From: Oscillospiraceae bacterium
GTDB taxonomy: Bacteria; Bacillota; Clostridia; Oscillospirales; Acutalibacteraceae
Assembly: GCA_031266365.1 (NCBI GenBank)
Contig: JAISBE010000003.1
Location: forward strand, 186,001 to 250,000
Length of the DNA: 64,000 nucleotides
Direction of reading: 5' to 3'
The notes below the pieces were generated by a model. That model saw only the letters and a program-made list of their open reading frames with translations. It did no database searches and was not told where the DNA came from. The stretch's first letter is position 1. Each line of letters opens with the position of its first letter. Below, piece after piece: positions 11,021 through 59,265 of this stretch. The position numbers and the translations under genes are program-made.

Positions 11021-11235
11021 GCTTTTAGTTTAACTTGAGTAAATCAATTTACATTAAATTCATATTTTGATATATACATAAAAGTTAGTCGTTAAATATA
11101 AAAACATAATAATATATACAGAATAGGAAAAGTTCTGCATATTTATTTTGTTTTTTGTGATAAAATTTAATTTGATATTTAGTTTTTGCTGGCAAAGCTT
11201 ACTATTGCAAATTTACAATCGCAAGAAAATAGCAA

Positions 11236-11278
11236 ATCGAGAGAGTTTAAGCGTTTAGCTTATAAACTTTCTCTCGAT
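11236..11278 (-). terminator. Terminator-like hairpin for the secreted protein gene 11438-12397
   Basis: The arms ATCGAGAGA (11236-11244) and TCTCTCGAT (11270-11278) pair perfectly and the stem continues with few mismatches. On the minus strand a U-rich stretch follows. It may also end the plus-strand peptide transcript. I see nothing else in 11021-11360 beyond this element. Confidence 0.5.
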
Positions 11279-11372
11279 CAAGTGAATCGATTTTTATTGG
11301 AAATTTTATTAATTAACAGGATATAGTTTGTTTTTTGTCAATTAATAATAAGTTATTTAAAGGAGGTGTTTT

Positions 11373-22458: not shown

Positions 22459-23729
22459 ATTAAGTTTGCATATTTCACTTTCCCCCAAAAGATAACAATT
22501 TCCTGAACATAACCGCAACTGTTGGGTGTGGCAGATGGTATTCCATGTGTTTAGTTTTTCGCCGCGTATATTAAAGATGGTAACTTGTTTTTCGCTAAGT
22601 GCAGCCACATGGCTCCCGTTGCAGGAAACCGACTTTATATTTAAATTTGTGAAAATCTCTTGATTTGGATGCCCATCGAGCCCAAGGACTTCCAATTTGC
22701 AGTTACCTTTATTGTAGTTCGTCGCTAAAGATAGCACAGCACCGTGATCTTTGTATATTTCAAATGATGTTAAGGGCATGTCTTTATATGAATGATCGTA
22801 CCTTGTAGCGGCGAAGACGTCAACGACGGTTGTAAGCTTATTTCCCACGGCCACAACATTGCCATTCGATAAAAACTCGATAGCCTCAAAAATTGTGTCC
22901 GGGAACTCGTATTTTAATTTGGGCGTAGAGGAGTGATAGTCGAAGACATATAAAGTGGATTTCATTCTCCCGTTTTCTGCAGAAATTCCAACCACTGCAG
23001 CTAAATCTCCATCTTTATTTAATGCAAGGCCGTTGATGAAATCATTAGAAAAGTAATATTTATATATCTGTTCTTTATTTTTGGAAAAAATTGACATTTT
23101 GGAAAAATATCCGTTAGTTTCGGTTATAAATCCATAAATACCGTTCGAGGAAATTGCTGCAGTTATGATGTTTTCCTCTAAATTTCCTGTTGAAACATCA
23201 TTTAAATTTTTTACGATCTGAAAGTTTTTTCCGCGTAGATCATAGAATAAAATGTTTTTTTCGCCCAATTTTAGCATAGGGTTGCTGAAACTGTGCTGTA
23301 TTTCGTTAAGTTTTTTTGCTGCGCCGCTGAAAATCATCAAAGAAGTGTTGCTTACAGTTACCAAATTTTCGTTCATAATTAAAAAGTTTCCAGCAGCAAC
23401 CTTTTTATCATCAAACTTTATTGGGAATCCGGTTGCCTCGGTTGCGCTTGAATTCGTACCTTGCAACCAATTTAAAAATTTATCCGGCGCGAGTATTCCT
23501 TTATTTATTCCACAAAGCACAAAAATTATGAGGCACAAAATGATTAGCAAACTGAGAGCTCGTTTAGATAGCTTTATTTTGAATTTACCTATTTTTAGCT
23601 CTAAATTAGTTTTTTTTTCTGTAAAACTCTAAAATTATGCTTATTTTCGGTTTTTAGTAAGACGGGTCGTTTTTCTAAGTCAATTTTTTCTTGCTTCGCT
23701 TTTTCAGAAAAAATTCTCTTGTGTTTCAA
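22453..23729 (-). pseudogene. DUF5711-type beta-propeller membrane protein, split by a frameshift in an A9 run
   Basis: The main frame encodes a single transmembrane helix (LIILCLIIFVLCGI) and an extracellular beta-propeller-like domain, as in DUF5711 proteins of Clostridia. The best start is a TTG at 23727-23729 with an ideal AAAGGAGG site. It opens a basic cytoplasmic segment of about 40 codons that ends at a TAG just after nine adenines (minus strand, 23602-23610). One extra A would join it to the main frame exactly. The downstream frame from TTG 23550 has a weak ribosome site. The gene is therefore frameshifted, rescued by slippage, or affected by a homopolymer sequencing error. Confidence 0.65.
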
Positions 23730-57595: not shown

Positions 57596-58309
57596 TTATT
57601 TTAACTTAAGTAAAGCTTTTTTTATCGTCGCTATTTTTCTCGGATAATTTTCGGATGTTTTTTTAATTTTTCTAATTAGGATAATCATGCGATGACTGCC
57701 GTCTGGTAGAGAAAAATTTTCTATATTTTCAATTTTTCCACCTAAAAGGTCGATTATATGATTAGCTTCAGATATTTCTTTAGCTGCATCTGGGCCCTTC
57801 ATTGCGGCAAAAATTCCGCCTATTTTTATATATGGTATGCAGTATTCAGCTAAAATTGGCAGCTTTGCCACGGCGCGCGAAATCGCTATATCAAATTTTT
57901 CTCTCAATTCGGGTTTTTGTCCACCTTCTTCGGCCCTTAAATGCCATATATCAGCTTTTAGGTTTAGCCTTTTTAGTAAATTGTTTAAAAAGATAAGGCG
58001 TTTATTTAACTTATCCAATAAGGTTAAAGATAACTTTGGGAAAAAAATTTTGAGCGGTATTCCTGGAAAGCCAGCGCCAGTTCCAACGTCTATAACCCGT
58101 TTGTGTGCGTCGAAATTTAAATATTTAGATAAAGTTAGGCTATCTAAAAAGTGCTTGATAGCTATCTCTTTAGGCGATGTAATGGCCGTGAGATTGATTT
58201 TTTGGTTCCAATATAGAAGTGCTTCCATATATAATTGAAATTTCTCTACCACGCTCTCTTCCAATTCAAAGCCGAATTTTTTTGCATTTGAAACGAAATT
58301 TTCAAGCAT
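57596..58309 (-). CDS. rsmG: 16S rRNA (guanine-527-N7)-methyltransferase
   Basis: RsmG (GidB) methylates G527 of 16S rRNA using S-adenosylmethionine. The 237-residue product has YWNQKINLTAI, the SAM site VIDVGTGAGFPGIPLKI and the SRAVAKLPILAEYCIP motif. Length is normal. In many bacteria it follows mnmG; here it is apart. The start is ATG 58309 behind a weak AAGGAAG. Confidence 0.95.
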   Translation of the reverse strand: MLENFVSNAKKFGFELEESVVEKFQLYMEALLYWNQKINLTAITSPKEIAIKHFLDSLTLSKYLNFDAHKRVIDVGTGAGFPGIPLKIFFPKLSLTLLDKLNKRLIFLNNLLKRLNLKADIWHLRAEEGGQKPELREKFDIAISRAVAKLPILAEYCIPYIKIGGIFAAMKGPDAAKEISEANHIIDLLGGKIENIENFSLPDGSHRMIILIRKIKKTSENYPRKIATIKKALLKLK

Positions 58310-58376
58310 GTTATTTTATCTTCCTTTACTTATAATTTAAAAAATCATTTATGAGCTTTATAGTTTTAATTGACAC

Positions 58377-58405
58377 TTGACAAATTTTTAAAGTTATGAT
58401 AAACT
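58377..58405 (+). promoter_or_regulatory. Promoter of the antisense RNA (RNA II-like)
   Basis: TTGACA (58377-58382), exactly 17 bases, TAAACT (58400-58405) with extended TGA. A second TTGACA stands at 58370-58375. It faces the promoter at 58640-58668. Confidence 0.7.
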
Positions 58406-58411
58406 AAAACC

Positions 58412-58508
58412 ATAGAGGACTTTGTGTGTATTAGTCCTTTACGATTATGGTTAAAGTTATTTTAGAATTTTCAGCCTCGATCTTTATCGATAGAGGCTGT
58501 TTCTTTTT
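58412..58508 (+). ncRNA. Predicted antisense antitoxin-type RNA, about 97 nt
   Basis: The RNA would start near 58412 with ACCATAGAGG, form a stem AGGACT/AGTCCT, and end at the terminator hairpin CAGCCTC/GAGGCTG (58472-58499) with tail TTTCTTTTT. It is antisense to codons 18-42 of the small gene at 58431-58559. Its 5' sequence is repeated at the 5' end of the opposing transcript. Confidence 0.65.
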
Positions 58509-58559
58509 GTGTAACTTATACCATAAATATTTAAAGAGCTTTATTACACTCTCCTTCAT
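58431..58559 (-). CDS. 42-residue peptide, candidate type I toxin
   Basis: ATG 58557-58559 stands seven bases after AAGGAGG. The peptide starts MKESVIKLFKYLWYKLHKKK, an amphipathic basic helix, followed by a polar, beta-like tail. It is not as hydrophobic as Fst or TxpA. The mRNA from the promoter at 58640-58668 has a 5' stem-loop in which TCCCTCACTTT (58593-58603) pairs with the ribosome site (58569-58579), hiding it. Its first 11 bases can also pair with its own 3' end. These are traits of toxin mRNAs of par/Fst and related systems. Toxicity itself is untested inference. Confidence 0.6.
   Translation of the reverse strand: MKESVIKLFKYLWYKLHKKKQPLSIKIEAENSKITLTIIVKD
58472..58508 (+). terminator. 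Terminator of the antisense RNA
   Basis: CAGCCTC (58472-58478) pairs with GAGGCTG (58493-58499), with inner GAT/ATC pairs, followed by TTTCTTTTT. Confidence 0.75.
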
Positions 58560-58639
58560 GATAACACCTCCTTCACTTTAAAAATAGGTTGAAAAGTGAG
58601 GGATATATCATAAAGGACGAGCCCTCTATGGTTACTATC

Positions 58640-58668
58640 ATTTTACATGATTTGTCGTTTACAGTCAA
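58640..58668 (-). promoter_or_regulatory. Promoter of the 42-residue peptide gene (RNA I-like)
   Basis: Minus strand TTGACT (58663-58668), exactly 17 bases, TAAAAT (58640-58645). The transcript would begin near 58633 with AACCATAGAGGGC. Confidence 0.7.
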
Positions 58669-58683
58669 TAGATATTCGTAAAA

Positions 58684-59265
58684 TTAGATATCTTTAATAA
58701 ATTTAGGTAAACGTTTATATAATAAAGATGCGATGAAAGAAACCAGCAGGCCTTTTAACAGTGTGAAAGGGACGTTGAAAGTCAAAAGCGCCTCAGATAT
58801 GCTATTTATTTGAGGAAAAATAGCTTGATACATATTTAAGATTTTATTTTCAGAAATGATTTGAAAATAAATTGGATAGAGTATATAATAATTTATTGGG
58901 AAACTAGTGATTGCCATGCTCAAAGAGCCGACTATGCAACTTAGAATTGCACTGTATTTAGATTTATTTTTAACGTAGATAATCCCTAAAGGGAGAATAA
59001 AGCTGCATTCGAGGAGAAAATTTGCGAGCGGTCCAATTATAAATGTGCTGCTGAAGGGAATAGTGATAATATTCTTTAAAAGGCAAACTGAAATTCCGCT
59101 GAAAGGCCCCATGCTATAAGTTGCGATTATAGCGGGTAGTTTTGCAAGATCCATTTTTATAAAGCTTGGCATGAAAGGCAAGTTGAAACGCAAAAAAACG
59201 GCCAAAATTGCAGATATACCAGAGAGTATAGCTATGGTTGCTAATTTCCTAGGTTCATTTTTCAT
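58684..59265 (-). CDS. ribU: ECF riboflavin transporter S component RibU
   Basis: The 193-residue membrane protein has six hydrophobic helices and the RibU pattern: IKMDLAKLPAIIATYSMGPFSG, VCLLKNII and the C-terminal FTLLKGLLVSFI. It binds riboflavin and pairs with EcfT plus ATPases. The 286 bases upstream, shared with divergent tilS, show no FMN riboswitch that I can recognise. Ribosome site CGGAGA. Confidence 0.82.
   Translation of the reverse strand: MKNEPRKLATIAILSGISAILAVFLRFNLPFMPSFIKMDLAKLPAIIATYSMGPFSGISVCLLKNIITIPFSSTFIIGPLANFLLECSFILPLGIIYVKNKSKYSAILSCIVGSLSMAITSFPINYYILYPIYFQIISENKILNMYQAIFPQINSISEALLTFNVPFTLLKGLLVSFIASLLYKRLPKFIKDI

Follow-up and report, generated by a model that had tools for sequence, protein, structure and literature searches.

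The 64,000-nucleotide stretch analysed here (hereafter the window; contig JAISBE010000003.1 of an Oscillospiraceae bacterium) carries a 230-base locus that holds a 42-codon peptide gene and, on the opposite strand, a predicted antisense RNA. The locus sits between rsmG (57596-58309) and a gene for an ECF transporter component (58684-59265; ECF_trnsprt in Pfam, called ribU in an earlier sequence-only reading of this DNA), both of which lie on the minus strand. The source genome, 1.1 Mb in 22 contigs, is the sole representative of its genus in our genome set. As that earlier reading had described, the peptide gene (58431-58559, minus strand), the predicted toxin, lies behind a strong Shine-Dalgarno sequence, AAGGAGG (58567-58573), placed 7 nt before an ATG. 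The nearest in-frame stop on the 5' side is separated from the ATG by 6 codons, and for that reason we place the start codon at this ATG.

Two promoter sequences face each other across the locus, both with the 17-base spacing previously reported: TTGACT-17-TAAAAT on the minus strand (58668-58640) for the peptide mRNA, and TTGACA-17-TAAACT with an extended -10 element on the plus strand (58377-58405) for the antisense RNA. Taken alone the promoter scan is weak evidence, because shuffled sequence already gives 5.5 promoter-like sites (standard deviation 2.2) where the 1.4 kb scanned gave 11. The predicted mRNA, about 233 nt long and ending in TTTTAGTTT, would span 58401-58633 on the minus strand. 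The predicted antisense RNA, or antitoxin (58409-58508, plus strand), is about 100 nt long, is nested wholly inside the mRNA and is antisense to the 3' half of the gene, in agreement with the earlier reading. It would consist of a 5' hairpin (58409-58451), the loop of which (58422-58432) is the likely contact site and differs among copies, and of its own intrinsic terminator (58472-58508), which lies inside the reading frame, the frame running through it. This terminator, earlier called perfect, is only good: it has 7 pairs, a 1x1 mismatch and 3 further pairs, followed by TTTCTTTTT.

The DNA of the locus contains two inverted repeats, 58408-58421 with 58620-58633 (13 of 14 positions) and 58434-58445 with 58607-58618 (11 of 12). 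Block A (58620-58633, minus strand) forms the 5' end of the mRNA and pairs with 58408-58421 (A') near the 3' end of the same mRNA; block B (58607-58618, minus strand) can pair with the region of the start codon or, alternatively, with 58434-58445 (B'). Because the shared blocks are inverted repeats, the 3' end of the mRNA is complementary to the 5' end of the same molecule, which can therefore fold back and close; and because the antisense RNA is copied from that 3' end, it must begin like the mRNA. The earlier observations that the two RNAs start alike and that the mRNA can pair its two ends are thus upheld, and one principle, a self-closing mRNA, explains the repeat pattern.

Predicted folding is strong on both strands. 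The minus RNA (225 nt folded) reaches -81 kcal/mol with a z score of -10.5, and the plus RNA (102 nt folded) -27 kcal/mol with a z score of -3.3; for each, none of 200 shuffles was as good. The minus-strand fold places the Shine-Dalgarno sequence and the ATG in one long hairpin and pairs the 5' end with the 3' end, which bears out the suggestion that the leader can hide the ribosome site. A scan of the whole window as 1702 overlapping stretches of 225 nt (step 75 on both strands, with 20 shuffles for each stretch) ranked the peptide locus first, with a z score of -10.4 on the minus strand versus a weaker -8.8 on the opposite strand.

A six-frame search of 398 genomes from 135 genera, drawn from the family, together with a profile search, yielded 10 copies of the locus, the window's included, in five genomes of three genera (G000, G119, G138, G233 and G300). 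Beyond the window these amount to seven intact and two decayed copies in four genomes of two other genera, so eight of the ten copies have an intact frame. An RNA model of the antisense RNA recovered the same 10 places and three weak matches, which we set aside as plain terminators. Matches at E<=10 occurred in 72 genomes of the six-frame search, of which the four strong relatives were used; those in G096, G170, G195 and G140 were dropped, as nothing of the leader or structure recurs there. The profile search also gave partial matches in G144, G098 and G185 (E 0.0015-0.008) and an additional G233 fragment at C6:10060 (E 0.003).

The window peptide on its own, compared with 5.8 billion proteins, matched only itself; a profile of eight copies found 10 further proteins in the protein set, eight of which begin farther upstream and read across the Shine-Dalgarno sequence. 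Two proteins, P0010 and P0011, are shorter metagenome relatives that lack the SIKIE segment and retain KLHKKK and the Lys-Asp end. A search across 394 genomes of the order returned the source genome itself and two weak partial matches; of five weak matches in other genomes from another genome search, three were read and looked like chance. The phage search gave two matches, both at E 4, and the plasmid search none; viral contigs held no match by pattern and 20 stretches, unconfirmed, by alignment. Rfam has nothing in the window at gathering scores.

With inverted repeats near both ends and copies in different places, the locus could be taken for a non-autonomous mobile element whose ends are the repeats. 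We consider this very improbable and have rejected it: no second copy was found in the source genome (only matches under 50 bases), no target duplication is seen by eye, and the repeats mark where the RNAs are predicted to start and pair with each other in the folded RNA. Equally rejected, and hardly tenable, is the reading of the locus as a leader or attenuator of the downstream rsmG, which lies on the same strand with about 120 nt from frame end to rsmG start; against it, no rsmG match occurs in nine stretches of a few kb each around the related copies, and rsmG stands beside ribU in none of 29 related ribU loci (at most about 1.5 kb on each side).

For the comparisons that follow, tests of full-length mRNA left out G233a and G233d, in which the upstream part is replaced or cut by a contig end, and the decayed copies G233c and G233e were kept out of the substitution and covariation tests and included in the promoter, fold and terminator counts. 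In all 28 pairs of intact copies, the proportion of nonsynonymous differences (pN, mean 0.27) is below that of synonymous differences (pS, mean 0.61), third codon positions are the most variable (34 of 40 columns, versus 24 for first and 17 for second positions), and length differences among copies are whole codons. The peptide thus looks to be under purifying selection. The window's ATG is replaced at the same position by ATT in three, ATC in three and ATA in one of the other seven intact copies, and this position lies 7 or 8 nt after GAGG in all six full-length intact copies. In some type I toxins a non-AUG start is described as a secondary brake (PMC8167048, in excerpt); ATT, ATC or ATA starts on type I toxins were not found in the literature searched. 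The C-terminal Lys-Asp is invariant in the 17 sequences of alignment A5 and coincides with block B', so this end may be held by RNA pairing.

These data bear on a further explanation, that the locus is a pair of regulatory RNAs with a frame that is untranslated or incidental. Very strong folds, poor codon usage, the lack of a standard start codon behind the Shine-Dalgarno sequence in seven of eight intact copies and one copy with a broken frame and a retained RNA all speak for it, whereas the uniformly lower pN, the variable third positions, the whole-codon length changes and the Shine-Dalgarno spacing of 7 or 8 nt in the six full-length intact copies speak for a translated frame; we judge the explanation improbable. 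The sequence-only reading had itself named a broken frame beside persisting RNA structures as evidence that would count against it: among the ten RNA copies this combination occurs once (G233c), eight keep the frame, and G233e has lost most of the fold.

The promoters recur. The sense promoter has a spacer of 17 in all eight copies that keep their upstream DNA, and the antisense promoter in nine of ten, the decayed G233e retaining TTGATT with TCTAAT at the -10 place; the same pattern gives three extra matches with spacer 16 inside copies, plus matches from neighbouring tandem copies. The copies share ACCATAG-like 5' ends. By eye, the relatives show an inverted repeat (CTATGG...CCATAG with flanking bases) around the sense -10 box, with a run of T behind it (L061 2180-2250, L064 1980-2050); the window copy lacks this repeat, which could halt incoming transcripts or bind a repressor. 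G233a (L061 2313-2560) retains the frame and antisense RNA with its leader and sense promoter swapped for unrelated sequence, and is a possible antitoxin-only copy.

The RNA folds recur as well. The mRNA folds with z scores of -4.3 to -9.8 in all six full-length intact copies, and the 5'-3' closing helix is dominant in five of them; the decayed G233e (z -2.2) has lost most of the fold and does not close. No shuffle out of 500 matched the 5'-3' duplex in five copies (2 of 500 in G300), and 0 to 5 of 500 matched the Shine-Dalgarno duplex. In the mRNA alignment A6, where MAFFT placed the window's 5' end imperfectly and we left it so, two-sided changes occur in 7 of 44 pairs versus 2.8 in shuffles (1 of 500 as high) and at most 3 in slid versions. 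By these comparisons, the predicted mRNA folds show compensatory changes across copies. The 5' hairpin and terminator of the antisense RNA are kept in the eight intact copies, with 92.5% of cells paired versus 35-61% when slid, and 8 cells with two-sided changes versus 3.3, above shuffles. For the window copy, the 5' arm pairs with the cognate 3' arm at -34.9 kcal/mol and with five foreign ones at -18.0 to -26.7 kcal/mol; in other copies, foreign 3' arms often bind equally well or better than their own.

The leader hairpin covers most of the Shine-Dalgarno core in six of six full-length intact copies. An alternative fold that pairs block B with B' near the 3' end is predicted to be 2.7 to 8.0 kcal/mol worse; it frees the start codon in three of six copies (the window, G119a and G119b), and the Shine-Dalgarno sequence stays paired. 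In this alternative fold, the stretch that separates B' from A' is unpaired; its sequence complements that of the antisense loop, and from these models we infer that the two may form the natural first contact.

Taken together, promoter sequences that face each other, a reading frame bearing the signature of purifying selection and the recurring predicted folds of both RNAs suggest that the locus likely works as a type I toxin-antitoxin system made up of the 42-codon gene and the nested antisense RNA. The type I architecture proposed earlier is thus retained, since related loci keep the frame, promoters and RNA folds. Under this reading, the mRNA would be silenced by its own fold, with one hairpin hiding the Shine-Dalgarno sequence (and in the window the start codon too) and the 5' end tied to the 3' end. 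The antisense RNA, the 5' end of which copies that of the mRNA, would compete for the mRNA 3' end, making first contact through the loop of its 5' hairpin and then zipping up with it into a duplex of 100 bp, which would be cleaved or held back from translation. Should the antisense RNA become scarce, the peptide would be made slowly and would harm the cell, probably at the membrane; in the relatives the ATT, ATC or ATA start is predicted to slow translation further. If this is true, the locus would represent an added toxin family that annotation easily misses, because the genes are tiny and, in seven of eight intact copies, the start site carries none of the codons ATG, GTG and TTG. The natural set of tandem, decayed, phage-linked and chromosomal copies would then serve to study how a doubly locked message is still expressed, and would allow one to ask whether the antisense loops are copy-specific labels.

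Several results weigh against this toxin-antitoxin reading. On the side of the peptide, the pN/pS contrast is blurred by the overlapping RNA constraint, and the codon usage of the frame scores below 99.7% of same-length gene pieces in the window, which argues against coding. The window peptide was earlier described as basic and amphipathic, and its basic character holds (net charge +6, and +3 to +8 across copies, with a basic N-terminal and a more hydrophobic C-terminal half), but the amphipathicity is weaker than stated: the hydrophobic moment has p = 0.12 against shuffles, and p<0.05 in three of eight copies. Maximum 17-residue hydropathy is 0.65-1.89 across copies, with no strong transmembrane stretch, and the structure model is of low confidence (pLDDT 68; helix 2-18 at about 80, helix 23-41 at 54-62). 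On the side of the RNA, the mRNA strand and the opposite strand of the relatives fold without consistent difference, and the antisense RNA exceeds shuffles neither in pairs with two-sided changes (3 versus 1.9; 103 of 500 as high) nor in further pair types (10 versus 11.1). G300 lacks the block A closing helix and closes via block B only, while the decayed G233c (z -4.7) keeps the closing and both promoters with a broken frame and a mostly open Shine-Dalgarno sequence. Pairing of the start codon is full in the window only, partial in four other copies and absent from the best fold of G300. Finally, most of the GAGG core is paired in six of six copies in all three folds tried, including one with 45 nt removed from the 3' end; folding therefore offers no route to translation, and no predicted fold exposes the ribosome site.

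The setting of the copies is relevant to what the peptide does. G233 carries three tandem copies, of which the third is decayed, and G119 carries two, at a spacing of about 320-340 bp; both arrays adjoin helix-turn-helix (HTH) regulators, and that of G233 also a tRNA-Leu. An Amidase_3/SPOR gene (Pfam) lies about 66 nt beyond the end of G233d, a group II intron maturase and a phage-type integrase lie within 2 kb of the G300 copy, and the copies of G138 and G300 adjoin a small hydrophobic frame, which by eye only we take to be holin-like and which in G300 has no Pfam match. At L062 31-225, G233d thus adjoins an amidase gene of phage type; at L065 1990-2262, the G138 copy fills the gap between an amidase end, as read by eye, and the small hydrophobic frame. 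The phage-type surroundings of G233d, G300 and G138, along with the lack of a clear transmembrane helix in the peptide, favour an antisense-controlled small peptide that is no toxin, for example a phage-derived inhibitor or a lysis-timing factor under the same RNA control. We hold this unlikely: tandem copies, decayed copies and differing loops in neighbours fit addiction modules, and the window copy's own neighbours are ribU and rsmG.

If it is a toxin-antitoxin system, the locus would by analogy work most like aapA/IsoA, a type I system of Helicobacter pylori and other Epsilonproteobacteria (PMC6733600, in excerpt). Both have a small toxin mRNA closed by a long-distance 5'-3' helix, a masked ribosome site, a cis-overlapping antisense RNA and several copies per genome, according to the same excerpt. 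They differ in that the aapA mRNA is activated by 3' trimming, as that excerpt describes, whereas here the site is still predicted to be masked once 45 nt have been taken off that end. Further differences are that a local hairpin masks the Shine-Dalgarno sequence here, that the antisense RNA spans the gene's 3' half and has the same beginning as the mRNA, and that the host belongs to the Clostridia; no peptide family in common with AapA was found in Pfam, NCBIfam and PHROGs, where only weak matches of one or two of 17 family members occur.

The locus had earlier been assigned to the par/Fst type, and this we reject. Convergent promoters, an mRNA of about 230 nt, a masked Shine-Dalgarno sequence and a sequestered 5' end are indeed shared with par/Fst of pAD1 and its relatives (PMC7472228, in excerpt). 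In par/Fst, however, the two RNAs run across a pair of direct repeats and are mutually complementary through them, and the antisense RNA is about 40 nt long (excerpt of PMC7472228), against about 100 nt here, where it lies inside the gene. The repeats here are inverted, other direct repeats at the locus being short or imperfect and placed elsewhere; there is no shared bidirectional terminator, that of the antisense RNA lying within the frame (58472-58508); and the window peptide, which has no glycine, lacks the PXXXG motif, with no match to Fst in Pfam for any of 17 family members.

Type I systems of Clostridioides difficile (CD2517.1-RCd8 and others) likewise combine a small peptide with a convergent overlapping antisense RNA in Clostridia, several of them in prophages (PMC6563280, in excerpt). 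Compared by description, the peptide here differs in its basic N-terminal half, more hydrophobic C-terminal half and lack of a strong transmembrane stretch. In hok/Sok, Sok pairs with the leader of the hok mRNA, whereas the antisense RNA here covers the 3' half and the peptide has no Pfam match. Long-range folding that keeps the full-length mRNA inert and a metastable hairpin are points of likeness with hok/Sok (PMC6733600, in excerpt).

The antisense loops vary more than their stems (mean identity 0.57 versus 0.87), with the linker equally variable at 0.53. Tandem neighbours (G233a/b and G119a/b) have different loops, with predicted pairing energies of -13.6 to -16.7 kcal/mol for own and -1.5 to -8.8 kcal/mol for crossed combinations, and G233b and G119b, from different genera, have one loop in common. 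G233d and G233a, on different contigs of one genome, pair crosswise at -14.1 kcal/mol one way, which speaks against a strict barcode. In all seven copies tested, the sense and antisense promoter-plus-leader segments are more alike than shuffled sequence (0 to 3 of 1000 shuffles as good), in keeping with an inverted duplication. The likeness is weaker when only the promoter halves are compared (4 to 223 of 1000 as good), and that of the leaders is also required by RNA pairing. A fuller proposal, possible rather than probable, is that of a new antisense-controlled toxin family born by inverted duplication of promoter plus leader: mRNA and antitoxin would have the same start, the antitoxin would compete with the mRNA 5' end for the 3' end, most members would start at ATT, ATC or ATA behind a strong Shine-Dalgarno sequence, and the loop would act as a barcode that stops cross-silencing of tandem neighbours. 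The crosswise pairing of two copies within one genome and the weak likeness of the promoter half count against it.

Elsewhere in the window, the strongest fold outside the peptide locus lies at 11101-11325 on the minus strand (z about -5.8, 20 shuffles), and a second 42-codon frame, with AAAGGAGG and a TTG start, lies outside the long genes at 23601-23729, also on the minus strand.
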